64,000 nucleotides of DNA from Pseudorhizobium banfieldiae (GTDB lineage Bacteria; Pseudomonadota; Alphaproteobacteria; Rhizobiales; Rhizobiaceae): assembly GCF_000967425.1 (NCBI RefSeq), contig NZ_FO082820.1, positions 1,302,001-1,366,000 on the forward strand, read 5' to 3'. Every line of letters starts with the position of its first letter. The stretch's first letter is position 1. The position numbers were made by a program, and so were the translations under genes. The notes beneath the pieces were generated by a model. It was not told the DNA's origin. It saw only the letters and a list, made by a program, of their open reading frames with translations, and ran no database searches. Shown here piece after piece: positions 10,623-45,356 of this stretch.

Positions 10623-12104
<1,482 letters not shown>

Positions 12105-31487: not shown

Positions 31488-32063
31488 GTGTCCAGAACCG
31501 ATGACGTCCGCATGCCCGCCGATCCCGCTCGCCCCGCCGAAGCGATCATCCGCGTCGAGCGGTATCCTACGACCTCGCGTATTCTTCATTGGCTCGTCGC
31601 GGTGCTGGTGCTCGCAACCTGGCCGCTCGGCTTTTTCATCCAGTTCACGAAGAAGGAAGTGACGCTCGACTTCTATCTGGTCCACGAAAGCCTCGGCTTT
31701 CTGGTCCTGTGGATCATGCTGGTGCGGGTCGGCAACAAGCTGGTTACGCGCACGCCGCAACGCGAGGGGCCGGTGGTCGAACGGGTCGCAGCGACAGTCG
31801 TTCACGCCTTGCTCTATGTCTTCCTGATCGTCATGCCGATCAGCGGCTTTCTCGCCACCAATGCCCACGGTTTCCCGCTCATCTGGTTCGGGCTCGTGCC
31901 GGTTTGGAGCCCGCTCGGCAAGTCTCCCGACATCGCATGGACGCTGTCTGCGATTCACGAGGTCAGCGCATGGAGCCTTCTGGCGCTTTTCGCGTTGCAT
32001 ATCGGCGCGGTGCTGCTTCATCATGTGATACGGCGCGACAACACGCTGTACAGGATGCTTTAG
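31488..32063 (+). CDS. Cytochrome b561 family membrane protein
   Basis: A four-helix di-heme b-type cytochrome of 191 residues. Candidate heme histidines occur near residues 34 (RILHWL), 66 (LVHESLG), 106 (VVHALLY) and 171 (FALHIGAVLLHH). Family members such as CybB move electrons between quinol and periplasmic acceptors. The gene starts 138 bases after tRNA-Thr and ends eight bases before the RibD-like gene, so the two form an operon. Whether it gives electrons to the neighbouring pathway is an open question. Confidence 0.88.
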   Translation: MSRTDDVRMPADPARPAEAIIRVERYPTTSRILHWLVAVLVLATWPLGFFIQFTKKEVTLDFYLVHESLGFLVLWIMLVRVGNKLVTRTPQREGPVVERVAATVVHALLYVFLIVMPISGFLATNAHGFPLIWFGLVPVWSPLGKSPDIAWTLSAIHEVSAWSLLALFALHIGAVLLHHVIRRDNTLYRML

Positions 32064-32071
32064 GGAGCGGG

Positions 32072-32875
32072 ATGTTCAATCTGGAAATGAGCGAGGCAAC
32101 GTGGTCGGGGCTGCTGGCCCTCCGGCAGGGAACCGGGGAGGCAGTCGTCGGTGACCTTGCATACCGCCTCTATGGCCCGATAGCCAATGCACCCGGCCGC
32201 TTCGTGCTGGCGCAGGTGGGCCAGTCACTCGACGGCAGGGTTGCGACACCGGCAGGCGACGCCCGCGACATCTCAGGCGAGGACGGCCTGGCGCATCTTC
32301 ATCGATGCCGGGCACTGGTGGACGCCGTGATCGTCGGAGTTGGAACCGTCATCGCCGACGATCCAAGCCTCTCGGTCAGGATGGTCAAGGGTTTGTCGCC
32401 GGTTCGGGTGATCGTCGATTGCCACGGAACGTTGAAGGGAGCCGAAAGCCTGTTCCATGACGGCGGTGCACCTGTGATCGTGTTCAGAAGCGCGAGCGCA
32501 TCCGGTGCCGAACTTCCAAATGCCGACATCATTAACCTGGAGCCAAAGGCTGGCGGCCTCGATCCCCGCGACATCCTCGACGCACTGGGGGCGCGAAACC
32601 TGAACCGCGTGCTGGTGGAAGGCGGTGCGCGGACGATCGCCCGCTTCATCGACGCCGGCCTTGTCGACCGGCTGCACGTCGCCATCTCCCCAATCATCAT
32701 CGGCTCAGGCCCGATGGGCATCAGCCTGCCGCCCATCGAGAAGCTTGCCGGTGCCCATCGCCCCGCCACGGATGTCTACAATCTCGGTAGCGACATCCTG
32801 TTCGACTGCGTTTTCCGGTCAAGCGAAGCCTCAGCCGGGCAGGGCGAGGAGATCGCGGTGGCTAACCAGGCATGA
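32072..32875 (+). CDS. RibD C-terminal-type reductase without deaminase domain
   Basis: A 267-residue protein of the dihydrofolate-reductase-like RibD_C fold. FVLAQVGQSLDGRVATPAG and AVIVGVGTVIADDPSLSVR are the NADPH/substrate signatures, and RVLVEGGARTIARFIDAGLVD closes the fold. In riboflavin synthesis this domain reduces the ribosyl side chain of the GTP cyclohydrolase II product to ribityl. The CMP-deaminase-like half of RibD is absent: about 45 unrelated residues lie in front. It lies after the b561 gene and near a RibA homologue. Its last 45 bases overlap the convergent methyltransferase gene. Confidence 0.88.
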   Translation: MFNLEMSEATWSGLLALRQGTGEAVVGDLAYRLYGPIANAPGRFVLAQVGQSLDGRVATPAGDARDISGEDGLAHLHRCRALVDAVIVGVGTVIADDPSLSVRMVKGLSPVRVIVDCHGTLKGAESLFHDGGAPVIVFRSASASGAELPNADIINLEPKAGGLDPRDILDALGARNLNRVLVEGGARTIARFIDAGLVDRLHVAISPIIIGSGPMGISLPPIEKLAGAHRPATDVYNLGSDILFDCVFRSSEASAGQGEEIAVANQA

Positions 32876-33625
32876 GGCCCCCGGCGTGCCGATCGTCGCT
32901 AGCCGAAACTCCAACCACTCGCCGATCGCGGTGTCCGGCAGCTCCGACGCCTCCAGAAGGGGCTGACGCAAGCCTCCCAGGAACTCTGCCTGCAGAGCAG
33001 CACTGCTCTCGTCCAGCCGCCACGGGCTCTCGGCCGTCGTCACGATAAACCCGCGAGCCTTCAGGTGTCCGGCAAGACATGCGGTGGCGTCGGGTCCGAG
33101 TGCCGGCCCGAACCCCTTGTCGGTCCGCTGGTGGCGGTTGAAAAGGTCGGTCATCTGCCCGTCGAGCGGATGTTCTGGCGACCAGCGCATGACGCCATCA
33201 TAGTTCAGTGCGGCATAGAGGCCGCAGCCGGCCGCTGCGAGGCGGTCCGCAAGCGCCGCGCAGAATTTTTCGGAGCAAAGATCGAAGAGCGCCGACGCCG
33301 TGACGACACTTGCCTCGTCCAAGGTAAGGCCAGCGATGTCGTTGAGGTCATGCTGTCGAAACGCGACATTGGCACTCGTCCCGGCCCGCCGCGACGCCTC
33401 CTCCAGGAGCACGGGGTCATAGTCGAGCAGAAGCCACCCGGTGTAACGGGGGAGATGATCCTGAAGGCTTCTCAGGGTTGAGCCTGTGCCGCAGCCGATA
33501 TCGAGGATGAACGGACGGTCCATTCCCTGGAGATAAGTCGCAAGCTCCTCCACCAGCCCCATGTCGCGGGCGGCCTGATCGGCCGTTTCTCTCAGCGCCA
33601 GCCAGTCCTTGTCGAAACCGCTCAC
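32831..33625 (-). CDS. Class I SAM-dependent methyltransferase
   Basis: A 264-residue Rossmann-fold methyltransferase. Motif I is FILDIGCGTGSTLRSL (residues 39-54), an acidic LLLDYDPVLLEEA motif follows, and a later FDLCSEKF replaces the usual post-I region. The GTG start overlaps the glycosyltransferase stop as GTGA. It ends the leftward operon dehydrogenase - PTPS - glycosyltransferase - methyltransferase. The substrate is unknown; methylation of the pathway product is inferred from context. Confidence 0.85.
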   Translation of the reverse strand: MSGFDKDWLALRETADQAARDMGLVEELATYLQGMDRPFILDIGCGTGSTLRSLQDHLPRYTGWLLLDYDPVLLEEASRRAGTSANVAFRQHDLNDIAGLTLDEASVVTASALFDLCSEKFCAALADRLAAAGCGLYAALNYDGVMRWSPEHPLDGQMTDLFNRHQRTDKGFGPALGPDATACLAGHLKARGFIVTTAESPWRLDESSAALQAEFLGGLRQPLLEASELPDTAIGEWLEFRLATIGTPGASCLVSHRDLLALPG

Positions 33626-34665
33626 GGAAGTGTCTCCAATCTGTCGGCGATGATGCCGACGGTCCTGTTCCAGTTCGGCAAGAGAGCGCCCGCATGTCGT
33701 GCCGCTTCGGCTTTGCGCCGCCGCATTCCCCTGTCCGTCACGAGGCTACCGAGTGCCGCGGCGAAGGCATCGATGTCATCGACGCCGGTCAGTATGCCCG
33801 CCTCTTCGGGCACGACGTCGGGAACGGCGCCGGTGCGGCAGGCGACGATGGGCAGGCCGTGGGAAAGGGCTTCGGCAAACACCATGCCATAGCCCTCGAA
33901 CCTGCTCGCGAGGGCGAATATATCGGCGCTCGCCAGTATCGGCCTGACATCGGCCACTTCGCCGGCAAGGCTGACGCGCTCGGCAAGGCCGCTCTCTGCC
34001 AGCTGCTCCTCGATTTCCCGCGCCGTTCTGGGGCTGAGGTTGTGACTACCGACAATGGTGGCAGTCCAGGAAAGGTGCTCGATCCGTTTGAGCGCTGCGA
34101 TCAGGACATCATGGCCCTTGCGCGGGATGAGCGTGCCGATTGACACGATATGTGGCGGCTCACCTTCACATCTGGCGGGAGTCCCGGGTCCGGTTCCTGG
34201 TATGGCTACGGTGATCTTCTCGGATGGGACGTTGTAGCTGGATGTCAATTCCCGCGCCGTCATCGGCGACGTCACGATGACATGTTCCGCCCAGGCAAGT
34301 GCCTGTCGCTCGCTTGCTGCGAGATCTTGTTGCTGCTCGGCGTCCAGGCCGGTCTCGAGGGCGAGGGGATGATGAACGAGAGCGACGATTCGCAGACGCT
34401 TGCTCTCGCGTTCGGCCCATGTGTCGAGCACACCGAAAGCGAGACCGTCGACCACGACCTGCGCGCCATCTGGCAAGCGCGATAGCAGATCCTCCGCCCG
34501 TGCCTTGGCTTCCGGCGAGGGATTGGGAAACCCATCACCGAGGGGCAGGCACTGAACGTCCCAGCCGCAGTTGCGAAGACCGTCTGTGACGCGCCGGTCA
34601 TAGGCATAGCCGCCGGTATTCAACGCCAGATCGCCCGGGAAGGCGAAAGCGATTGTCCGGCTCAA
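33622..34665 (-). CDS. Glycosyltransferase family 4
   Basis: A GT-B glycosyltransferase of about 347 residues with a retaining-type C-terminal half: IVSIGTLIPRKGHDVLIAAL starts the nucleotide-sugar domain, and FEGYGMVFAEALSHGLPIVA carries the E-x7-E motif. I placed the start at TTG 34665 because it overlaps the PTPS stop as TTGA and has GAGG six bases before; GTG 34683 is possible and would add six residues. It has no membrane helix. Donor and acceptor are unknown; glycosylation of a pterin- or pyrimidine-like compound is inferred from neighbours. Confidence 0.85.
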   Translation of the reverse strand: MSRTIAFAFPGDLALNTGGYAYDRRVTDGLRNCGWDVQCLPLGDGFPNPSPEAKARAEDLLSRLPDGAQVVVDGLAFGVLDTWAERESKRLRIVALVHHPLALETGLDAEQQQDLAASERQALAWAEHVIVTSPMTARELTSSYNVPSEKITVAIPGTGPGTPARCEGEPPHIVSIGTLIPRKGHDVLIAALKRIEHLSWTATIVGSHNLSPRTAREIEEQLAESGLAERVSLAGEVADVRPILASADIFALASRFEGYGMVFAEALSHGLPIVACRTGAVPDVVPEEAGILTGVDDIDAFAAALGSLVTDRGMRRRKAEAARHAGALLPNWNRTVGIIADRLETLP

Positions 34666-35060
34666 AGGTCGGCCTCGTACCACCCGCGTGCGGCGTGCGA
34701 CTCGTGCAGGGTAACCTTCAACCGACAGATCCGGTGGCTTCCTTCTCCGAGCTTTCCGCCCGCGACTGCGGTCGCCAGTTGGTCGAAGACGTGCTTGGCG
34801 ATGACTTCGGTCGTGGTGACCTTCCCCGCGAACATGGGGAGTTCGTCGAGGTTCTGATAGTTGAGCGGCGCCAGGACTTCCCGGAGAACTGTCGTGGCGG
34901 CGCCGATGTCCACTGCCAGTCCGTTCTCGTCCACATCGCGTGTGAAGAAGGCGGCATCGACCACGAAGGTGGCGCCGTGCATGCCCTGTGCAGGGCCGAA
35001 AACGGGACGGGGAAGGCTGTGGGCGATCATGATGTGATCGCGGACTTCGACGGCGAACAT
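34662..35060 (-). CDS. 6-pyruvoyl-tetrahydropterin synthase / QueD family homologue, divergent
   Basis: A 132-residue protein of the PTPS fold. The first zinc histidine is in MIAHSL (H14) and the second in MHGA (H28). The usual HGH motif reads HGA, so the third ligand is lost, and the catalytic Cys of true PTPS is not found before it. Glu85 in TTTEVIAKHV and the HESHAARGWYE end (E120, H122) remain. The reaction is therefore likely not standard PTPS or QueD chemistry. It lies between the dehydrogenase and glycosyltransferase genes. Confidence 0.82.
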   Translation of the reverse strand: MFAVEVRDHIMIAHSLPRPVFGPAQGMHGATFVVDAAFFTRDVDENGLAVDIGAATTVLREVLAPLNYQNLDELPMFAGKVTTTEVIAKHVFDQLATAVAGGKLGEGSHRICRLKVTLHESHAARGWYEADL

Positions 35061-35082
35061 GCTTCTGAAACTCCGTGACTAT

Positions 35083-36084
35083 TCAGTAATGGATACGGTG
35101 GCAGAGGGTATCCGGATTGGCGAGGATGGCGGGATAGGCGCTTTCGATCTCCGAGAAAGGCGTCTCGCCGGAGATCAGCGCGTCCAGCCGGTCGTCGAGC
35201 AGCAGGTCGAGGGACTTGGCGAGGCGACGCGCGGGGCTCCACCGAACGCGCCGGTTCGGGGATACCGAACCGACCTGCGAACTGGCAAGCGTGAGCCTGC
35301 GAGCGTGAAAGGCTCCGCCCAGCGGGATGCTGACGGGCTCGTTGCCGTGCCAGCTTGCCTCGACGATGCGAGCCTCCTGTCCGGCAAGCCCGATCGCTTG
35401 CGCAAGTGCTTCCGCCGATCCCGACGCATTCACCAGCACATCGAATTCTCCAGCCATGGTAGTCCCCGTCGAGAAGTCCAGGGAAAGATGTTCGGCAAGC
35501 GCTCGCCGTGCGGGATTGGGATCGATCAGCACGGCTTCGGTGCCGCAGATCCGTGATGTCAGGTGCGCTACCAGCGTGCCGACCACGCCGGCACCGAAGA
35601 TGGCGACACGGTCGCCCGGCTGGACATTTGCATCCCAGACGATGTTGAGGGCGGTTTCCATGTTCGCGGCCAGTATGGCCCGTTCCGGCGGCAACCCGTC
35701 CGGAAGGACAAGCAACTCGGATTCATCGATCGCGCAGAGATCCTGGTGCGGATAGAGACAGAAGACGAACTGGCGGGCCATGGGCGCGCTGCCCGTCTCG
35801 ACCTTTCCCACGAGCGAGTAACCATACTTGACCGGGAAGGGGAACTCGCCCGCCATGTGAGGTGCACGCATGCGTTCGAATTCGCTGACGGGTACGCGGC
35901 CGCTGAAGACGAGGTTCTCCGTGCCTCGGCTGATGCCGCTGAAGAGCGTGCGTACGAGGGCTTGGCCAGGGAGGGGCGGCTCCAGTGGCTCATGCCTCAG
36001 CTCGCATGCGCCAGCGGCCGTGAGCCAAAGGGCACGAGCAGAGTCTATTTCAGCACGTTCCGCAGGCGAGGCACCCAAGTTCAT
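35083..36084 (-). CDS. Medium-chain dehydrogenase/reductase, zinc-free type
   Basis: A 333-residue MDR-superfamily protein. Its GroES-like N-terminal half includes RTLFSGISRGTENLVFSGRV, and its Rossmann domain has AIFGAGVVGTLVAHL for NAD(P). The catalytic zinc cysteine/histidine set of alcohol dehydrogenases is absent, and no structural-zinc cysteine cluster is seen. The start has GGAGAG six to eight bases upstream. It is the first gene of the leftward operon, divergent from the RibA gene with a 270-base gap that contains an inverted repeat. A redox step in the pathway product is inferred. Confidence 0.85.
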   Translation of the reverse strand: MNLGASPAERAEIDSARALWLTAAGACELRHEPLEPPLPGQALVRTLFSGISRGTENLVFSGRVPVSEFERMRAPHMAGEFPFPVKYGYSLVGKVETGSAPMARQFVFCLYPHQDLCAIDESELLVLPDGLPPERAILAANMETALNIVWDANVQPGDRVAIFGAGVVGTLVAHLTSRICGTEAVLIDPNPARRALAEHLSLDFSTGTTMAGEFDVLVNASGSAEALAQAIGLAGQEARIVEASWHGNEPVSIPLGGAFHARRLTLASSQVGSVSPNRRVRWSPARRLAKSLDLLLDDRLDALISGETPFSEIESAYPAILANPDTLCHRIHY

Positions 36085-36224
36085 CCGTCTCTCCTCTTAC
36101 GCCGGCCTTGGGACCGCGCTTGCGCTGGGTCGCCAGCGTCGCCTGCAACCATCTTGGGCACCCAGTGGGGTGTGGCTTTCAACCTCGGCGACGCTCAAGG
36201 ACCCGAACCGTGCTGAGCGCGTTA

Positions 36225-36253
36225 TCTTGTCCTGCGCAGGCGATCTGACAAGA
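36225..36253. promoter_or_regulatory. Inverted repeat in the divergent promoter region
   Basis: TCTTGTC (36225-36231) and GACAAGA (36247-36253) form a perfect seven-base inverted repeat, 15 bases apart, with the palindrome CTGCGCAG between them. It lies about 140 bases before the dehydrogenase gene and 100 before the RibA gene. It may be an operator for both; no regulator gene is found in the cluster. Confidence 0.45.
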
Positions 36254-36354
36254 CGTCGGCGGGGATCTGCCGGTGCCGAATAAGTGATTGATCCGGCCAA
36301 GGGCTCTGCGCGTAAAGCTTGGCACTGAACGTTTTTGGGAAGGATTTTTCAGCG

Positions 36355-37458
36355 ATGTCATTCGTCGAACAGGGTTTTCAGGTTGCCTCGCCCGCAGTTC
36401 AGGTCGAGCGTGCAGTTGCGGAATTGCGCTACGGCCGCCCGGTTTTGCTCAGCGATGGCTCACGCAGTCTTGCTGCCCTTGCGCTCGATAGCGTGGCACC
36501 GGCTGTCTACGACCAGTTCGCCGATGCGGTGGGTGACAGGCATTCGCTGCTGCTGACGTCACATCGTGCAATGCGCCTCATGCCGGGTGCCGCCCAGGAC
36601 CTTGCTGTTCCGCTTGCCGGCATTTCCTTCGCGCAGGCGTCGCAATTGGCCTATGGGCTTGGGGCATCGGCACCCGACGAGTGGCACACGGCTGACCGAC
36701 TGATGAGCATGTCCGCTGAGCTTGCCCGTCTGGCGCTGCTCTTGCCTGCCATGGTCTGTGCCGACGTTACGGGAGCCGAGCATCACTTCGCTGCCTGCTG
36801 CAAGCTCGATCACTCTCTTCTGGAAGGGGCCGGCACTGCGCGCCAGAATTTTGAGATCGTTGTCCGCACCCGCGTGCCGCTAAGGGACCTAGGCGATTCC
36901 CATTTCGTGGTTTTCCGCGGGGGATTGGCCCAGAAGGACCAGATCGCCATCGTCGTCGGCAATCCAGATCTGGCGCGCCCGGTCCCGGTCCGCATTCATT
37001 CCTCATGTGTTACCGGCGATCTTTGCGGCTCGCTCAAGTGCGACTGCGGCGACCAACTGCGCAATGGTCTCGCCTCCATGAAGGCTGCGGGCGGCGGCGT
37101 GCTTCTCTATCTCGACCAGGAGGGAAGGGGCACCGGTGTTGGCGCGAAGATGCGCGCGTACGGGTACCAGCACCGCGGGCTCGACACCATCGATGCCGAT
37201 GCCGAACTCGGCTATGATGTCGACCATCGCCGCTACGAGGCAGCAGTGGCGATGCTGCGACTGCTGCACATAGAGAAGGTCGTGCTGTTCACCAATAACC
37301 CGACGAAGATCGCCGCCCTTCGTAGCGCAGGTATAGGGGTGGAGAGCCGTGTTCCGGTAACGGGAGAGGTCACCGTGCAGAATGCGGCTTATCTGCAGAC
37401 GAAGAAGGATCGGGCCGGCCATATGCTGGACATCGAGGCCCTTCTGGCAGCGGAGTAG
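36355..37458 (+). CDS. ribA: GTP cyclohydrolase II family protein with N-terminal extension
   Basis: The C-terminal 200 residues form GTP cyclohydrolase II, which converts GTP to the diaminopyrimidine ribosyl phosphate that starts riboflavin synthesis. Zinc cysteines are in HSSCVTGDLCGSLKCDCGDQ (C-x10-C-x-C). YLDQEGRGTGVGAKMRAY binds GTP, and DHRRY plus FTNNPTKI follow. The N-terminal 165 residues (AVAELRYGRPVLLSDGS onward) resemble a degenerate RibB domain lacking its acidic DDEDRE motif. The ATG at 36355 with GGGAAGGA upstream is preferred over TTG 36319. First gene of an operon with the phosphatidyltransferase and FkbM genes. Confidence 0.9.
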   Translation: MSFVEQGFQVASPAVQVERAVAELRYGRPVLLSDGSRSLAALALDSVAPAVYDQFADAVGDRHSLLLTSHRAMRLMPGAAQDLAVPLAGISFAQASQLAYGLGASAPDEWHTADRLMSMSAELARLALLLPAMVCADVTGAEHHFAACCKLDHSLLEGAGTARQNFEIVVRTRVPLRDLGDSHFVVFRGGLAQKDQIAIVVGNPDLARPVPVRIHSSCVTGDLCGSLKCDCGDQLRNGLASMKAAGGGVLLYLDQEGRGTGVGAKMRAYGYQHRGLDTIDADAELGYDVDHRRYEAAVAMLRLLHIEKVVLFTNNPTKIAALRSAGIGVESRVPVTGEVTVQNAAYLQTKKDRAGHMLDIEALLAAE

Positions 37459-37460
37459 GC

Positions 37461-38234
37461 ATGATGTGGTCAAAGGAGGCATCCGCCATTCGGATCTCGG
37501 CTGCGGCAGCCGGACCGTCCCACGCGCTTCGTGTGAACGCTCTGGCGGTGCTTGGCGGTGTCTTTCTGGGTTCGATTGTTGCCTACTCGGCGATCTCATT
37601 CCATCTGTCGCTAGGCAGCGCCACAGTCATTGCCGCTGCCGTGCTGCTTCTTGTCATTTTTTTCCTTGTGATCGGAAGCCTGCACCGGCACCGTTTTGAC
37701 AGCTTCGGTCTCGCGAACACAGTGACTGCAATCAGATCGGCGATCGTCAGCCTGGTCGCTGCCGCAGTGATCGTGCCCAATGCGCCTGAAAATGCCTCCT
37801 GGGCCCTCGTGCTCCTCGTGACAGTGGCGCTTACGCTGGATGGCTTCGACGGGTACCTCGCACGCCTCCAGAGGCAGGAGTCGGAACTTGGCGCAAGGTT
37901 CGACATGGAAGTCGATGCCTTTCTTATCCTCTGCCTGTCAGCCGCCGTGTTCATCCTCGATAAGGCGGGGGCGTGGGTCGTGCTGATAGGCCTGCTTCGC
38001 TACGCTTTCATGATGGCGCAGTACTTCGTGCCCAGTCTGACGGCACCTCTGCCGCCATCGCTGCGGCGCAAGTTTGTCTGTGTGGTGCAGGTTGCCGCGC
38101 TCTGCCTGATCCTCGTTCCCGGGGTGATGGCACCCATCTCCGTCTGGCTGGCGGCTGTTGCGCTCCTCTTGCTCATCTACTCGTTCGCGGTCGACTGCCT
38201 CTACCTCCTGCGCGATCCAGAGGTGGGAAGGTGA
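37461..38234 (+). CDS. CDP-alcohol phosphatidyltransferase family membrane protein
   Basis: A 257-residue membrane protein with about six hydrophobic helices. The family motif D-G-x2-A-R-x8-G-x3-D-x3-D is complete: DGYLARL through GARFDMEVD, near residues 131-154. Such enzymes attach an alcohol to a CDP-linked lipid or polyol, as in phosphatidylglycerol and phosphatidylinositol synthesis. It starts two bases after the RibA stop and overlaps the FkbM gene as GTGA, so it belongs to this pathway rather than general lipid synthesis. Donor and acceptor unknown. Confidence 0.88.
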   Translation: MMWSKEASAIRISAAAAGPSHALRVNALAVLGGVFLGSIVAYSAISFHLSLGSATVIAAAVLLLVIFFLVIGSLHRHRFDSFGLANTVTAIRSAIVSLVAAAVIVPNAPENASWALVLLVTVALTLDGFDGYLARLQRQESELGARFDMEVDAFLILCLSAAVFILDKAGAWVVLIGLLRYAFMMAQYFVPSLTAPLPPSLRRKFVCVVQVAALCLILVPGVMAPISVWLAAVALLLLIYSFAVDCLYLLRDPEVGR

Positions 38235-38983
38235 GCGCCGCCACAGGCCTTGATACGGCAATCGGTGTCGCGCGCTCGCTGGTGGTCTACTACGGCCAGC
38301 CCTGGCGCCGGGTGCAACTGAGGCGGTTCTACAGCGGGATCATCAAGCCCGGCGATATTGTCTTCGATATCGGCGCGCATGTGGGCAGCCGAAGCAGGAC
38401 CTTGCTGTCCCTGGGGGCAGAGGTCGTGGCCGTGGAGCCGCAGCCCGTGTTTGCCGACATGATCGAGAAGCATCTCACCAGCCGCTGGAAGGGATTCGAG
38501 CGTGCGGCCGTGGGCGCGACGGAAGGTGAGGCAAGGTTGCGCATCTCACGTCGTCATCCCACCGTCTCCACCGTATCGGACCGCTTCATAGAGGGTGTCA
38601 GCCATGCCGAGGGGTTTCGCGATGTCGTCTGGGACCGAGAGGTTGCCGTCCCCATGACGACGCTGGACCGGCTGATCGGAAAATATGGAATTCCGGCCTT
38701 CTGCAAGATCGACGTCGAAGGTGCCGAGGCCGAGATCCTCCGCGGACTTTCAAGCCCGATCCGCCTCGTCGCGTTCGAATATATTCCGGCACTTCCCGAA
38801 ATCGCGCTTGAAGCGATCGGATTGCTTGAGAGGCTCGGCAGCTACCGCTTCAATCGGGTGGTCGGCGAGAGACACCGCTTTGCGAACGAAGAATGGCAGG
38901 ACGCCGCGACGATTCTCGATGGAATTTCTTCGCTGACGCCGGGAGATCCGTCAGGCGATGTCTATGCCCGGTTGGCGACGTGA
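38231..38983 (+). CDS. FkbM family methyltransferase
   Basis: A 250-residue SAM-dependent O-methyltransferase of the FkbM type. The motif IVFDIGAHVGSRSRTLLSLG (about residues 39-58) binds SAM, and FCKIDVEGAEAEILRGL is the diagnostic C-terminal part. FkbM enzymes methylate hydroxyls on sugars and natural products. The GTG start at 38231 overlaps the preceding stop. It ends two bases before the convergent gene of the flippase-like protein. Confidence 0.88.
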   Translation: MSAATGLDTAIGVARSLVVYYGQPWRRVQLRRFYSGIIKPGDIVFDIGAHVGSRSRTLLSLGAEVVAVEPQPVFADMIEKHLTSRWKGFERAAVGATEGEARLRISRRHPTVSTVSDRFIEGVSHAEGFRDVVWDREVAVPMTTLDRLIGKYGIPAFCKIDVEGAEAEILRGLSSPIRLVAFEYIPALPEIALEAIGLLERLGSYRFNRVVGERHRFANEEWQDAATILDGISSLTPGDPSGDVYARLAT

Positions 38984-38985
38984 TC

Positions 38986-39918
38986 TCATCGGGCGATTCC
39001 TGCACCCCGCCTCCAGCCGCCAAGTGCGGACGCGCCGTACACCATCAGGCCTGGAAGCGCGGTACCGGCAAGCGAGAAGGCACCGTAAAGAAGGCTCGCA
39101 GCAAGGCCCTGGGCGCTCGTGTATCCCAGGAGCGGCCAAAGCACCGCTGCGGCCGCTTCGCGGCTTCCCCACCCGCCGATACCCACTGGAACCAGCATCG
39201 CCAGCAGGCAGAGCGGAATGATCGCAAACGCTCCGGCCAGCGGCAGTGGTGCGCCAGCCGCATCGGATGCAATGAGGAAAATCGCCACGTAACTTGTCAC
39301 GATGAGAATGCTCAGTCCGCCCTGGATCGCGAAGGCTCGGTCTTTCCAGAAGACCGCCGAAAGGTCAGGGAGGTGCTGGATACTCCACGCCCTGAGAGGT
39401 TTAACCAGAAGAGACGCCGCTACGATTGCGATGACGCCCGCCAACCCGGCGCCGAGCAGTGCCCAGAGGTCCGGAATGCTGTCCTGCGGCAACAGCACCA
39501 CCCAGCTCAGCAATCCCAGGACCGTGAGCAACAGAAACGCGAGCTGCCCGGAGAGCCGCTCCAGCACGACAGCTGCGGTTGCCCGCTTCCAATCACCAGC
39601 GGCGTCGCCGCTGCTGCGATATGCGCGGACGGCGTCGCCGGCGATGCCGCTTGGCAGGGTCTGGTTGAGGATGCCGCTGAGATAGTATTCCCGTATGGCA
39701 GTGGCTCGCCGCATGGGGTGACCGAGCCGGGAGGCGGTAAAGTGCCAGCGCAGCGCGGAAAGCAGGATCTGGACCTGGACGATGATGATGGCGACGAGTG
39801 CATGGCCTGGCGGCACGCCTGCGAGAGCCTCGGCGAGGCTCGCAGGATCGACCGCAAGGACGAGGAGAGGCAGAAGCAGGAGACCTGCAGCCATCGCGAC
39901 CACCTTCAGTATTCGCAT
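38986..39918 (-). CDS. Lysylphosphatidylglycerol synthase TM region / UPF0104 family protein
   Basis: An integral membrane protein of about 310 residues with roughly eight helices. The family signature SALRWHFTASRLG lies early, YYLSGILNQTLPSGIAGDAVRAY is represented by its core LNQTLPSGIAGDAVR, and LLAMLVPVGIGGWGSREAA comes late. This is the flippase half of MprF-type proteins without the aminoacyl-transfer half; such stand-alone proteins are thought to move lipids. The start is at 39918; a longer frame upstream has no support. It is encoded opposite to the RibA operon. Confidence 0.88.
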   Translation of the reverse strand: MRILKVVAMAAGLLLLPLLVLAVDPASLAEALAGVPPGHALVAIIIVQVQILLSALRWHFTASRLGHPMRRATAIREYYLSGILNQTLPSGIAGDAVRAYRSSGDAAGDWKRATAAVVLERLSGQLAFLLLTVLGLLSWVVLLPQDSIPDLWALLGAGLAGVIAIVAASLLVKPLRAWSIQHLPDLSAVFWKDRAFAIQGGLSILIVTSYVAIFLIASDAAGAPLPLAGAFAIIPLCLLAMLVPVGIGGWGSREAAAAVLWPLLGYTSAQGLAASLLYGAFSLAGTALPGLMVYGASALGGWRRGAGIAR

Positions 39919-40004
39919 GGCTGTCGATTGCCTCCTTCGTCGTTCATGATCCTGCTCCGGTGGAGTGATGCTCGGGGTAGTATACGAGCGGGAGGAGCGT
40001 TCGG

Positions 40005-41648
40005 ATGAACCGGACCGGCACGATACACCAAATTCGTGGATGGCGAGCCGCCCTGGCAATGACGATTTTCGTCGCGGTTTCTTTCTTCGCGTGCGCCATG
40101 CCAGATACGCCGGGCGGCATCCAGTTCACCCGCACCCTGCGTCTGCCGATCGAGATACCGCTACTGGCTCTCGCCTTGCTGTTGCTGCCGAGGAGGATGG
40201 CCATTGGGGTGGCGGTTCTCTCGACGACCGTGGTCTTCTGCCTTCTGTTTCTCAAGATCGGCGATCTTGCTGTCCTCTCGGCATTCCAGCGCCGCTTCAA
40301 TCCCTATCTCGACCTGAAGATGATCTTTGACGGATGGAACCTGCTGTCCGGCTCCCTCGGCGCGTTGACTGCGGCCGTCTCGATCGGCGGGGCCGTCGCT
40401 TCCCTGGCTGCCTTGGTGCTGGCCTTCTCCTGGGCGTGCATCCGGATCACGAACCTGTCCGACCAAGTCCGAAGGACAGCGGTTGCGGTATTCGCGCTAC
40501 TGCTGGTCGCCGGCGTCGTGCTGCAGACGGCGAATGTCCGCGCCGGCTCTGATCCTGTGGCTCAGCTGCGCGTGTCGGACTATCTCGGAGAGCGGCTGGC
40601 TCTGGTGGCTCGATCGGTTGCCGACATCCGTGCATTTGAGGCGGAGTTGCATGAGGAGGCGGGATATCCCGCCGGAGCGCCGTCCTTCGAGCGCATCAAA
40701 GGGCGGGACCTGATCCTTGTCTTCGTCGAATCCTACGGGCGAAGCGCGATCGAGGATCCGCGCTACAGCCCGATGATCGGCCCAAGGCTCGAGGGCGTCG
40801 AGCTGCAGCTTTCCGAGGCCGGCTTCGCATCTGCGAGCGGCTGGACGCGGTCACCGACCGTGGCGGGTCTCAGCTGGCTCGCTCATGGCACCCTTCTCTC
40901 GGGTCTCTGGACCGATAGCCAGGCGCGCTATGACCGGCTGATGACCAGTGACCGGCCGAGCCTCAACCGGATGTTCCGCGATGCCGGGTGGCGAACGGTG
41001 GCCATCATGCCTGCTATCACCATGGATTGGCCGGAGGCTGCCTATTACGGCTACGACGAGATCCTGGCGGCAAAGGACCTGGGCTACCGCGGCAAGCCGT
41101 TCAACTGGGTGACAATGCCGGACCAGTACACCCTGTCTGCCTTCGAAAGCCTCGCCCGCTCGCCGGCAAGGGACGCGGGCGTGCCTGTGATGGCGGAGAT
41201 CGCGCTCATATCGAGCCATGCTCCATGGACGCCGATCCCCCGGCTTGTCGACTGGAGTTCAGTCGGCGATGGGTCGACCTTCGACGGCCAGGCGGAGAGT
41301 GGCGATCCACCGGCGGTCGTGTGGGCCGATCAGGATCGGGTTCGTCGGCATTATATCGCGACGATTGACTACGCGCTGGAAACTCTGGGATCCTATATCA
41401 GCCATTTCGGCCGGGACGCCGTGTTCGTGATCCTGGGCGACCATCAGCCCGCCGCGCTGATCACCGGCCCGGATGCATCGCGATCCGTACCGATCCACAT
41501 CGTCAGCCGTGACCGTGCCCTCGTCGACAGTTTCAAGGCCGACGGTTTCTCTATCGGCATGACACCCTCGCCGCAGGCGCCGGAGCCATCCATGGACAGG
41601 ATGCGCGATGTTCTGATCAGCAGGTTCGGCGGCGGGCAGACGGAGTGA
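40005..41648 (+). CDS. Membrane-anchored sulfatase / phosphotransferase (alkaline phosphatase superfamily)
   Basis: A 547-residue protein with about five N-terminal membrane helices (residues 15-185) and a periplasmic alkaline-phosphatase-fold domain. DLILVFVESYGRSAIED provides the first metal site, and VFVILGDHQPAAL the second. It resembles LtaS, OpgB and phosphoethanolamine transferases, which move phospho-alcohol head groups from lipids to glycans. The usual nucleophile Thr after the ES motif is here Tyr-Gly-Arg-Ser, so the nucleophile position is uncertain. It is divergent from the flippase-like gene. Confidence 0.82.
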   Translation: MNRTGTIHQIRGWRAALAMTIFVAVSFFACAMPDTPGGIQFTRTLRLPIEIPLLALALLLLPRRMAIGVAVLSTTVVFCLLFLKIGDLAVLSAFQRRFNPYLDLKMIFDGWNLLSGSLGALTAAVSIGGAVASLAALVLAFSWACIRITNLSDQVRRTAVAVFALLLVAGVVLQTANVRAGSDPVAQLRVSDYLGERLALVARSVADIRAFEAELHEEAGYPAGAPSFERIKGRDLILVFVESYGRSAIEDPRYSPMIGPRLEGVELQLSEAGFASASGWTRSPTVAGLSWLAHGTLLSGLWTDSQARYDRLMTSDRPSLNRMFRDAGWRTVAIMPAITMDWPEAAYYGYDEILAAKDLGYRGKPFNWVTMPDQYTLSAFESLARSPARDAGVPVMAEIALISSHAPWTPIPRLVDWSSVGDGSTFDGQAESGDPPAVVWADQDRVRRHYIATIDYALETLGSYISHFGRDAVFVILGDHQPAALITGPDASRSVPIHIVSRDRALVDSFKADGFSIGMTPSPQAPEPSMDRMRDVLISRFGGGQTE

Positions 41649-41690: not shown

Positions 41691-42497
41691 TCAGGTGACA
41701 AGCTTGCCCTTCTGCAAGTCACCCCGGGCGATGAAATAGGGATTGGCGAAGTCGATACTGTCCGTCTGCTGCGTCTTCCCGTAGACGAGGGGCTTTCCGT
41801 CCAGCGTCGTGGTCGCGCCACCGGCCGCGCGGAGCACGGCATCGCCGGCCGCCGTATCCCACTCCATAGTACGGCTGAGCCGCGGGTAGATGTCCGCTTG
41901 CCCTTCGGCGACAAGGCAGAATTTCAGCGACGATCCGATCGCGCAGGTCTCCGCAATATTGTTGGCCTTCAGGAACGCCTCCGTCTCCGGCGTGCTATGG
42001 GAACGGCTGGCAACCGCGACCATCGAAGGAGCGGCCTCACGAACATGGATCGACTTCCTCGCGTCGACACCGAAGTCTGCCCCGATCGCCAGTCGACACG
42101 CCTCATCACCATCGCCCGTATAGGCGATGCCGAGCGCGGGGGCGTAGACGACGCCCGCGACCGGCACACCGGACCTGATGAGGGCAATGTTGACTGTAAA
42201 CTCCTCGCGGCCCGCAATGAACTCCTTCGTGCCGTCAAGCGGATCGACCAGGATGAAGGGGCCGGCGCCAATGGCCGGTATGCGTCCCGCGGCAACCGCC
42301 TCCTCGGCAATGACCGGGATGTCGGGAACAGCCTGACGAAGCACCTCGAGAATGATGCGCTCGGCCTGCTCGTCCGCTTCCGTCACCGGGGAGCAATCGG
42401 CCTTGTAGCTGGTTGTGGGGCCCGCCCGGTAAACCTCGATGATCGCGCGGCCGGCATCGAGCGCAGCGGATGTGAAGAGATCAATGAGCTTCGTCAT
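41691..42497 (-). CDS. cysQ: 3'(2'),5'-bisphosphate nucleotidase
   Basis: Removes the 3'-phosphate of PAP/PAPS, part of sulfate assimilation. A 268-residue member of the lithium-sensitive inositol phosphatase family. Metal ligands are in IAEEAVA (near residue 65), FILVDPLDGTKEFIAG (87-102) and MEWDTAAGDAVLRAAGG (near 212-228). It converges on the sulfatase-like gene, which ends 42 bases away. Confidence 0.95.
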   Translation of the reverse strand: MTKLIDLFTSAALDAGRAIIEVYRAGPTTSYKADCSPVTEADEQAERIILEVLRQAVPDIPVIAEEAVAAGRIPAIGAGPFILVDPLDGTKEFIAGREEFTVNIALIRSGVPVAGVVYAPALGIAYTGDGDEACRLAIGADFGVDARKSIHVREAAPSMVAVASRSHSTPETEAFLKANNIAETCAIGSSLKFCLVAEGQADIYPRLSRTMEWDTAAGDAVLRAAGGATTTLDGKPLVYGKTQQTDSIDFANPYFIARGDLQKGKLVT

Positions 42498-43669: not shown

Positions 43670-43754
43670 GGAGGGATGCCCGAGTGGTTAAAGGGGACGG
43701 ACTGTAAATCCGTTGGCTCAGCCTACGTTGGTTCAAATCCAACTCCCTCCACCA
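43670..43754 (+). tRNA. tRNA-Tyr (anticodon GTA)
   Basis: An 85-base class II tRNA with a long variable arm. Acceptor GGAGGGA pairs with TCCCTCC. Anticodon loop CTGTAAA holds GTA, and the T arm has GGTTCAAATCC. CCA is encoded. It is followed 23 bases later by tRNA-Gly. Confidence 0.97.
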
Positions 43755-43777
43755 TTCGTCACCGGATCGGCCACCCC

Positions 43778-43851
43778 GCGGGTATAGCTCAATGGTAGAG
43801 CAGCAGCCTTCCAAGCTGAATACGCGGGTTCGATTCCCGCTACCCGCTCCA
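43778..43851 (+). tRNA. tRNA-Gly (anticodon TCC), prophage target
   Basis: A 74-base cloverleaf. Acceptor GCGGGTA pairs with TACCCGC. Anticodon stem CAGC/GCTG holds loop CTTCCAA with TCC, and the T arm is GGGTTCGATTCCC. CCA is encoded. The gene is intact; the phage integrase begins 138 bases past its 3' end, so its 3' half is the likely attachment core. Confidence 0.97.
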
Positions 43852-43988
43852 GCTCGCCGCATTTATCGACCGCCAGATTCCCTGCAAATCAAGGCTTTCG
43901 GCTGAAGCGATCTGAAGCAGCTTGATCAAAACGAAATTTTCAGCACACTAACGTGGACATTTATTAGGACACAAAGGCGCGGCTGGGG

Positions 43989-45356
43989 ATGGGACGTCAC
44001 CGGAAGTCGAAGCACGATCTCGATCGGTATCTGCTGTGCGTCGGCGGCAATTACTACTATCGCCGGCGGGTGCCGACGGAGCTTGCCGACATCGACGAGC
44101 GCGGCCACACCGTCAAGATCTCGCTCAAGACGACGGACCTCGCCCGGGCCCGGACGATTCGCGACCTGTACGAAAAGGCGGACGATGACCGTTGGGCATC
44201 TATGCTCTGCGGCGAGGATCAGGAGGCGGCAAAGAACCGGTACCTGACCGCCATCAAGCGAGCGAAGGCGATGGGCTTCTCCTATCAGCCGTCCGCGGAT
44301 CTCGCGAATGCTCCCCTCGTGGCGCTGCTCGAAAGGGTGGAGGCCATCCTCTCCCCGTCGACGCCGAAGCCTGTCGTCGAGGCCGTCATGGGTACGGTGT
44401 CAGCTCCGGCCGCTACGGTGTCGGATGCCTTCAAGGTCTACGAGGAAGAGATCACGCCGCACCAGATCTCCGGCAAGAGCGCAGGCCAGAGGGCGAAGTG
44501 GCTGTCGGTGAAGAAGGGGTCGAAGGATCACTTCATCTCCGTCATGGGTGACATGGCGATGGACGAGATCACCCGCGACGATGCCCGCCGCTACTACAAC
44601 CATTGGCTCGAGCGGATCGCGCCGAAGGAAGGCAGGCCCACGCACACGCCCGACATCGGCAACCGCCGCCTGGGGGATATGCGCGTGCTGTACCGGGAGT
44701 ATTATTCCCACATGAAGCAGGAGGACCGCGTCAACCCGTTCGAGGGGCTGCGGTTCAAGGACAAGGCGAAGCGCCGGCGCAAGCGGCATCCCTTCACGAC
44801 CGAATGGATCACGGACAAGATCCTGAAGCCCGGCGCTCTGGCCGGCCTGAATGACGAGGCGCGAGCGATTCTGCTCATCATGATGAATGTCGGCGCCCGA
44901 CCCAGCGAGATCTGCAACCTGACCGCAGACCGCATCCAACTCCAGAGCAACATCCCCTACATCAAGATTGAACCTGACGACGACCCCGAGGATCCGCGCG
45001 AGGTGAAAACCGAAACGTCGATCCGTGTGGTGCCGGTGACCGGCATCGCGCTCGAGGCGCTGAGGAGATTTCCGAAGGGCTTCCCGCGGTACCGGGACAA
45101 GGAGGGCAACTTCTCCGCTGCCATCAACAAGTACATGGTGGAGAACCACCTGAGGCAATCGGTCAAGACGACCGTCTATTCCTTCCGCCATTCGTTCGAG
45201 GACCGCATGAAGAACGTGAAGGTCGACGACGAGGTGAGGAGGATCCTCATGGGCCATGCGATCGACAGGCCCGAATACGGCGAGGGCGGTTCGCTCGCGC
45301 TCAAGCTCGAGGCGATGGCAGCGGTCGCCCTGCCTTGCGACCCTTCGATCCTCTGA
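43989..45356 (+). CDS. Phage integrase, tyrosine recombinase
   Basis: Site-specific recombinase of 455 residues. The N-terminal arm-type region includes YYYRRRVPTELADIDERG, as in DUF6538-like integrases. A SAM-like core-binding domain spans about 140-260. The catalytic domain has Arg in NVGARPSEICNL, the H/R box as YSFRHSFEDRM, His in ILMGHAID and Tyr in RPEYGEGG. It is oriented away from tRNA-Gly, and its 3' end overlaps the first leftward phage gene by 56 bases. Confidence 0.95.
   Translation: MGRHRKSKHDLDRYLLCVGGNYYYRRRVPTELADIDERGHTVKISLKTTDLARARTIRDLYEKADDDRWASMLCGEDQEAAKNRYLTAIKRAKAMGFSYQPSADLANAPLVALLERVEAILSPSTPKPVVEAVMGTVSAPAATVSDAFKVYEEEITPHQISGKSAGQRAKWLSVKKGSKDHFISVMGDMAMDEITRDDARRYYNHWLERIAPKEGRPTHTPDIGNRRLGDMRVLYREYYSHMKQEDRVNPFEGLRFKDKAKRRRKRHPFTTEWITDKILKPGALAGLNDEARAILLIMMNVGARPSEICNLTADRIQLQSNIPYIKIEPDDDPEDPREVKTETSIRVVPVTGIALEALRRFPKGFPRYRDKEGNFSAAINKYMVENHLRQSVKTTVYSFRHSFEDRMKNVKVDDEVRRILMGHAIDRPEYGEGGSLALKLEAMAAVALPCDPSIL

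Follow-up and report, generated by a model that had tools for sequence, protein, structure and literature searches.

What product would call for a GTP cyclohydrolase II (GCHII), a riboflavin-type reductase and a relative of 6-pyruvoyltetrahydropterin synthase (PTPS) alongside enzymes of glycosylation, methylation and lipid synthesis? This question is raised by a block of 11 genes (31488–41648) in a 64,000-nucleotide window of the Pseudorhizobium banfieldiae genome. The window is the whole stretch of DNA analysed and corresponds to positions 1302001–1366000 of contig C1 in a 4.58-Mb genome rated 100% complete. Gene families in the block were assigned by Pfam and TIGRFAM-type profile searches. 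The answer preferred here, judged to have about an even chance of being right, is a dedicated pathway leading from GTP via a diaminopyrimidine ribitol phosphate to a methylated, glycosylated pterin-type head group on a phospholipid. The direct evidence consists of the gene families, their joint inheritance in two phyla, the zinc-binding and tyrosine residues of the GCHII (RibA), the altered zinc site of the PTPS-like protein and the motif of a CDP-alcohol phosphatidyltransferase.

Layout and joint inheritance of the cluster

Four genes form a run on the minus strand, with short gaps or overlaps between them: a BchC-like medium-chain dehydrogenase (35083–36084), the PTPS-like protein (34662–35060), a family 4 glycosyltransferase (GT4; 33622–34683) and a class I S-adenosylmethionine (SAM) methyltransferase (32831–33625). 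Divergent from this run, on the plus strand, lie RibA (36319–37458), the CDP-alcohol phosphatidyltransferase (37461–38234) and an FkbM-type methyltransferase (38231–38983), followed by a flippase-like LPG_synthase_TM membrane protein on the minus strand (38986–39918) and a putative membrane transferase on the plus strand (40005–41648). The starts of the two divergent operons are 234 bases apart, and their common upstream region, defined from gene coordinates, spans 36085–36318. The block opens on the plus strand with a cytochrome b561-type membrane haem protein (31488–32063) and a stand-alone RibD-type pyrimidine reductase (32072–32875). All genes named in an earlier note on this DNA are found in their place and with their families, the membrane "sulfatase" by its predicted fold and not by Pfam; the cytochrome b561 gene lies inside the range of that note, yet was left unnamed. 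That note's observation that the block lacks RibB, RibH and RibE is borne out by the gene list and the Pfam searches.

The cluster is real and widely inherited. The PTPS gene, its anchor, occurs in 27 of 398 genomes sampled across the phylum Pseudomonadota and in 32 of 151 genomes of the window's own family. The dehydrogenase, for which scoring covered the top five candidates in each genome, is present in exactly the same 27 of the 398 genomes and is adjacent to the PTPS gene in every one (Fisher p = 1.7e-42), so the arrangement exceeds chance. From 56 distinct PTPS genomes, that of P. banfieldiae included, 40 were sampled, 20 of the same family and 20 of other families ("distant"). Members were counted at ≥60 bits, which gives lower bounds, as distant matches may escape. 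The other core members are almost always present (dehydrogenase 40/40, GT4 39/40, SAM methyltransferase 38/40). The RibD reductase follows in 29/40 loci, the CDP-alcohol transferase in 23/40, the FkbM methyltransferase in 22/40, the membrane transferase and cytochrome b561 in 19/40 each, RibA in 18/40 and the LPG_synthase_TM protein in 17/40. Two control genes that flank the cluster, NAD kinase and inositol monophosphatase, reach ≥60 bits in none of the 40 loci; the second control is not perfectly clean, with a 46-bit match in locus L109 and an annotated copy near the core in L188. Distance correlations between genes of the cluster run from 0.56 to 0.95, values that are uncontrolled for kinship and are not used as proof.

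In a search of species genomes with RibA, the best 80 of 578 relatives were kept. The PTPS gene accompanies RibA in 46 of these 80, mostly in the gene order of the window, and the 46 named PTPS loci are nearly all from Rhizobiaceae. The other 34, mainly from Xanthomonas, Stenotrophomonas and relatives, lack PTPS in the examined stretch, which in at least one case (L049) ends at a contig edge. Xanthomonas sp. AmX2 (L064) carries the seven core genes in a rearranged order.

The set also crosses phyla. A plasmid search returned 20 records, including Streptomyces, Arthrobacter, Microbacterium, Thiodictyon, Methylosinus and Palleronia, and 11 of them were compared by tblastn. On a Streptomyces globisporus plasmid (L186), a span of about 8 kb holds matches to nine genes, namely those for the CDP-alcohol transferase, dehydrogenase, PTPS, GT4, methyltransferase, LPG_synthase_TM protein, RibD reductase, a creatininase-family protein and RibA, and with this locus the set reaches a second phylum. 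Eight matching genes are found in a plasmid of S. fungicidicus, seven in one of Microbacterium (L182) and three in one of Arthrobacter. In Thiodictyon, the four core genes come with a cytochrome b, RibD and the CDP-alcohol transferase, and the membrane transferase is matched at 152 bits; Methylosinus OB3b has mdoH, the dehydrogenase, PTPS, GT4, the methyltransferase and RibD. Rhodobacterales plasmids keep RibD, the methyltransferase, PTPS and the dehydrogenase, and one of them also RibA, GT4 and FkbM. The comparison of gene order across Rhizobiales that had been proposed earlier thus finds the members inherited together within that order, beyond it and into Actinomycetota.

Some loci deserve separate mention. 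A metagenome bin labelled Arenimonas (L004) contains the cluster in full Rhizobiaceae order with a RibA identity of 77%, which suggests a recent transfer or a mis-binned contig. In two Rhodobacterales plasmids, a ribokinase/PfkB-type kinase gene adjoins the core (L189 7834–8754, L188 11997–12887) and may phosphorylate an intermediate. The Streptomyces plasmids L179, L181 and L187 harbour an orphan PTPS-IV gene in mutually similar surroundings of cupin, MBL-fold, sigma factor and BTAD regulator genes.

RibA, the reductase and the PTPS-IV protein

The start of the pathway is, as far as sequence can tell, well supported by family membership and conserved residues. RibA is a GCHII of the PRK08815 type (NF006456, 484.8 bits, cut-off 464) with an alternative ATG start at 36355 and about 180 extra N-terminal residues that do not match RibB (PF00926). 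In an alignment with 13 other proteobacterial RibA proteins of the cluster, the three zinc-binding cysteines and the equivalent of Tyr105 (E. coli numbering) are all kept. The zinc-cysteine pattern is retained in 98 of 99 tblastn RibA matches, the exception being a partial match in locus L132. Full GCHII activity is predicted for the aligned Pseudomonadota proteins; ring opening of GTP by RibA would yield 2,5-diamino-6-ribosylamino-pyrimidinone phosphate. The RibD-type protein (PF01872, 1e-41) consists of a RibD_C domain without the deaminase, and its nearest solved structures, 6p8c and 2azn, are stand-alone pyrimidine reductases. The first of these is named for a 2-amino substrate; use of such a substrate here would preserve the guanidine part needed for a pterin. 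The reductase would turn the ribose of the RibA product into ribitol. These two reactions are proposed from the biochemistry of the families and would be the same as the first two of riboflavin synthesis; the cluster differs in lacking RibB, RibH and RibE and in continuing with PTPS, glycosyltransferase, methyltransferase and lipid enzymes.

In Streptomyces, the first step may take another course. The RibA proteins of both Streptomyces clusters keep the zinc cysteines, have a methionine at the Tyr105 position (read by eye) and are encoded next to a creatininase-family gene. S. coelicolor SCO6655 is reportedly a GCHII that forms formamidopyrimidine (FAPy) and, having Met, is said to stop at the formyl intermediate. 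In the two Streptomyces clusters, this intermediate could be finished by a BrbF-like formamidase, the product of the adjacent creatininase-family gene. A proteobacterial RibA of the FAPy type was also considered, as a pattern search suggested that Tyr105 was missing beside creatininase genes; the alignment showed LRAY, with the tyrosine present. Creatininase genes occur in 5/20 distant loci, and the four RibA proteins present there all keep Tyr. The BrbF branch known from Sinorhizobium meliloti, as described in passages of PMC9478397, thus has a family member in these five loci and in the two Streptomyces clusters.

The PTPS-like protein (PF01242) is the sole member of its family in the genome. 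FGPAQ (F21–Q25) and HGAT are invariant in 30/30 aligned members, and HGA replaces the zinc-binding HGH in 85 of 86 matches. The protein lacks the catalytic cysteine and the third zinc-site histidine found in QueD-type enzymes and retains the invariant glutamate E120, the residue that anchors the pterin in this family. With the PTPS profile, S. coelicolor SCO6650 (PDB 3d7j) is matched at 6e-58, whereas proteins that bear the name PTPS reach 3e-6 at best. SCO6650 is said to lack both the zinc and the catalytic triad and to have no PTPS activity; to our knowledge, no pathway or product has been assigned to it. S. coelicolor thus possesses a PTPS of the same family as the window protein together with the GCHII paralog SCO6655, and in two other Streptomyces, genes of the two kinds lie together in a single cluster.

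FGPAQ is described as the signature of PTPS-IV, a subfamily of COG0720, in the relevant section of PMC5445326. By this signature, the window protein is of the PTPS-IV type and belongs with SCO6650. Other assignments were tried and rejected using the motifs given in passages of PMC5041015. The QueD (PTPS-I) motif CxxxHGH is not matched, and no full-length QueC was detected: the search returned four partial matches covering about 60–77 of 210 positions at 21–25.9 bits, three of them just above the cut-off of 22 and all in longer frames. The PTPS-II and PTPS-III motifs, CxxxxxHGH and ExxHGH, are absent from the alignment of 30. An unpublished role of PTPS-IV in the synthesis of F420 in archaea is also mentioned in PMC5041015.

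A 561-sequence PTPS-IV cluster with PF00925 and PF01872 neighbours has already been reported (PMC5445326, section on PTPS-IV). The label given to PF00925 there is GTP cyclohydrolase I/FolE2; in Pfam, this model stands for GTP cyclohydrolase II. That section names no pathway and does not mention the dehydrogenase, glycosyltransferase, methyltransferase and lipid genes, all of which are cluster members here. No description of the whole cluster was found among open-licence papers searched by title and abstract, PMC5445326 mentioning a part of it. The link of PTPS-IV to PF00925 and RibD_C is thus already known, and the cluster as a pathway is undescribed in the literature searched. Two leads, the solved structure of SCO6650 and the 561-sequence subfamily, are joined as one part of a cluster common to Pseudomonadota and Actinomycetota.

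Tailoring enzymes and a possible link to the envelope

For the later steps, we infer a course from the company that the genes keep: ring closure, the order of tailoring, lipid attachment, flipping and transfer in the periplasm. On the ribitol intermediate, a pterin-type ring would be closed by PTPS-IV together with the dehydrogenase. The dehydrogenase reaches 68.6 bits with the bacteriochlorophyll BchC model TIGR01202, below its cut-off of 291, and is not BchC. The SAM methyltransferase (PF13649) has weak structural matches only, which are uninformative on its substrate. It and the GT4 enzyme (PF13692, 2e-30) appear to share one reading frame in L122–L125, where the GT4 reading frames are 644–655 residues long and span the methyltransferase match in L122 and L125. 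The CDP-alcohol transferase (PF01066, 2e-18) shows the motif D..DG..AR........G...D...D, the positions of which are invariant in 20/20 aligned proteins. Together, the SAM methyltransferase, the GT4 enzyme and the CDP-alcohol transferase would complete the product as a lipid head group; the block also encodes the FkbM-type enzyme (PF05050, TIGR01444). The LPG_synthase_TM protein (PF03706, 9e-40) might then flip the lipid, and the membrane transferase might pass the head group on in the periplasm. As a guess, the cytochrome b561 (PF01292, 5e-30), a frequent member found in 5/20 distant, 14/20 same-family and 35/46 named PTPS loci, could recycle a redox-active head group.

The membrane transferase has no Pfam match at 0.001. 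Its AlphaFold2 model (pLDDT 86) finds LtaP and LtaS as the best PDB matches by E-value (3e-11 to 1e-8), at modest TM-scores of 0.37–0.39 (model) and 0.46–0.49 (target); MCR-1, BcsG and sulfatases match too. The earlier label of membrane phosphotransferase or sulfatase therefore fails in Pfam and holds for the predicted alkaline-phosphatase-superfamily fold, with lipoteichoic-acid synthases first. In its predicted fold and in the membrane helices ahead of the catalytic domain, the protein resembles LtaS and LtaP; it differs from them in its identity of 12–14% and the modest TM-scores, and it is an accessory, not a core, member of the cluster. Identity with OpgB was considered and rejected, as a profile comparison with E. 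coli OpgB gave an hhalign probability of 0.7%.

A fuller version of the pathway is put forward tentatively, with confidence well short of even. Its product would be a membrane lipid of a new class: a glycerophospholipid carrying a methylated, glycosylated tetrahydropterin-type ring on ribitol, made from GTP without GTP cyclohydrolase I and flipped across the membrane; in many alphaproteobacteria, it would be kept reduced by cytochrome b561 as a membrane redox carrier, or passed to periplasmic glucans. The suggestion in the earlier note of a glycosylated or lipid-linked pyrimidine or pterin, exported to the envelope, agrees with a dedicated pathway that starts from GTP and includes enzymes of glycosylation, methylation and lipid synthesis, and its lipid linkage and export are carried here as proposals. 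Identifying the product would settle the role of PTPS-IV, add a branch to GTP-derived metabolism and perhaps reveal a new envelope lipid.

Several points weigh against the lipid-linked pterin pathway. The perfect match of dehydrogenase and PTPS comes from scoring five candidates per genome. At the 60-bit threshold, 22 of the 40 PTPS loci show no RibA match and 11 no match to the RibD reductase. In L039 (8945–9847) and L040 (9040–9852), a RibD-type reductase stands directly before RibA, and no PTPS-IV was found in these genomes. PTPS is an orphan in 3 of the 11 plasmid loci, all of them from Streptomyces. In profile comparison, choline phosphotransferases and serine transferases come nearest to the CDP-alcohol transferase, which leaves its acceptor open. 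Finally, the Rhodobacterales plasmids L188 and L189 show no CDP-alcohol transferase in the examined stretch; lipid attachment may thus not be universal.

These two plasmids speak for a soluble product. Soluble glycosylated pterins such as biopterin glucoside and cyanopterin exist, and the make-up of the tightest core (PTPS, dehydrogenase, GT4 and methyltransferase) is in keeping with one, with the lipid enzymes as bystanders. That the CDP-alcohol transferase accompanies the core in 23/40 loci, and turns up as well on plasmids of two Streptomyces, of Microbacterium and of Thiodictyon, makes this alternative doubtful.

Decoration of osmoregulated periplasmic glucans (OPG), in which the LtaS-like enzyme would move a lipid-borne head group onto the glucan, is unlikely as the purpose of the cluster. 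Genes for opgH, opgG or opgC lie within the region of about 20 kb around 12/20 distant and 3/20 family PTPS loci, against 0/34 PTPS-free RibA loci, these counts covering the regions at the locus. In L110–L115, L117, L118, L129 and Methylosinus OB3b (L183), opgH starts at most about 300 bases from the dehydrogenase gene and is divergent from it, hinting at a promoter shared between the dehydrogenase and glucan synthesis. The LtaS-like fold predicted for the transferase is in keeping with such a transfer. However, an opg gene is nearby in only 1/46 named PTPS loci, and none is seen among the cluster genes of the window in the Pfam and profile scan. The transferase has no profile match to OpgB, and its gene occurs in only 19/40 loci. 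Since Actinomycetota, which have no Gram-negative periplasm, share the core, glucan decoration is at most one use of the product.

RibA and the supply of riboflavin

A further alternative, distinctly unlikely, is that RibA and the RibD reductase simply feed riboflavin synthesis beside an unrelated envelope cluster. The state of the genome gives it some weight. The window RibA is the only GCHII with zinc cysteines; the only other PF00925 protein, a RibBA (C1:519556–520011; L002 1492–2706, minus strand), has an intact RibB half and a GCHII half devoid of these cysteines. The pair of reductase and RibA in L039 and L040 is in line with riboflavin supply, as are the Xanthomonas and Stenotrophomonas loci, which except for L064 show RibA without the other genes; all five such genomes searched lack PTPS-IV. 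Against it, full RibD and RibE are encoded together elsewhere in the genome, with RibH about 4.4 kb further on, and a creatininase-family gene (225 bits) is a BrbF candidate. Two Streptomyces plasmids also combine RibA with the PTPS set, and one of them has the RibD reductase as well. An FMN riboswitch was found neither in the window nor in the genome's other two rib regions, so that its absence from the cluster is uninformative.

The strongest counterargument is the distribution of GCHII in the family. PF00925 scores in 151 family genomes, that of P. banfieldiae included, fall into two groups, ≥149 bits and ≤122.6 bits, the strong group being complete and the weak one comprising the matches listed. 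A strong GCHII occurs in 17 genomes; 120 have weak matches only and 14 none, which leaves 134 without a strong one. The zinc-cysteine pattern is present in 15 of 17 strong loci (not seen in L149 and L164) and in 0 of 13 weak loci (the examined loci plus L001). In 14 of the 17 strong-GCHII genomes, the gene lies about 2.1–2.4 kb from PTPS, and the other three (G029, G052, G055) have no PTPS-IV match; a strong GCHII is thus found in 14/32 PTPS genomes versus 3/119 others (p = 1.1e-8). As 134 of 151 family genomes do without a strong GCHII, RibA follows the cluster rather than the need for riboflavin. The window RibA may possibly supply riboflavin, a role that its distribution does not track. The earlier judgement that ordinary riboflavin supply is unlikely therefore gains from this distribution and is tempered by the status of RibA as the only zinc-cysteine GCHII. 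That note had also named, as grounds for giving up its pathway, that RibA be the sole GCHII of a prototroph; this is half the case, given the lone zinc-cysteine enzyme on one side and the BrbF candidate and the 134 genomes on the other. Likewise, the second rib set that it asked about is present as RibD, RibE, RibH and a RibBA-like protein, the GCHII half of which lacks the zinc cysteines.

The same survey touches on a riboflavin puzzle of Rhizobiales. In passages of PMC9478397, S. meliloti is reported to require BrbF, while its ribBA is dispensable for growth. Most genomes of the family have a weak PF00925 protein only, and none of the 13 loci checked shows the zinc-cysteine pattern. Loss of these cysteines would fit the reported prototrophy of the ribBA mutant and may explain why the gene is dispensable there, and it leaves open where the first riboflavin intermediate comes from. 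In L132, a single 48-bit ribA match lies near 11300, between the genes for the dehydrogenase and the CDP-alcohol transferase; this genome (G145) has no strong GCHII, and most of the other cluster genes are kept.

Synthesis of a toxoflavin-type azapteridine, a parallel drawn in the earlier note, can hardly be right: it shares the GCHII, RibD-like and methyltransferase families and nothing beyond them, the toxoflavin set having a bifunctional RibD-like ToxE and no known PTPS-IV, dehydrogenase or GT4, whereas the core here is PTPS-IV, dehydrogenase, GT4 and methyltransferase, and the RibD protein has no deaminase (no search was aimed at other tox genes).

Two features lie downstream of the cluster in the window. 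An inositol-monophosphatase-family gene (41691–42497) comes first; genes of this family are also near the core in L188 (6171–6974, annotated) and L109 (near 1600, 46 bits), and they may be occasional members that remove a phosphate. Further on, at 43670–45356, two tRNA genes and then a phage-integrase-family gene (PF00589) form a stretch resembling the boundary of an integrated element.

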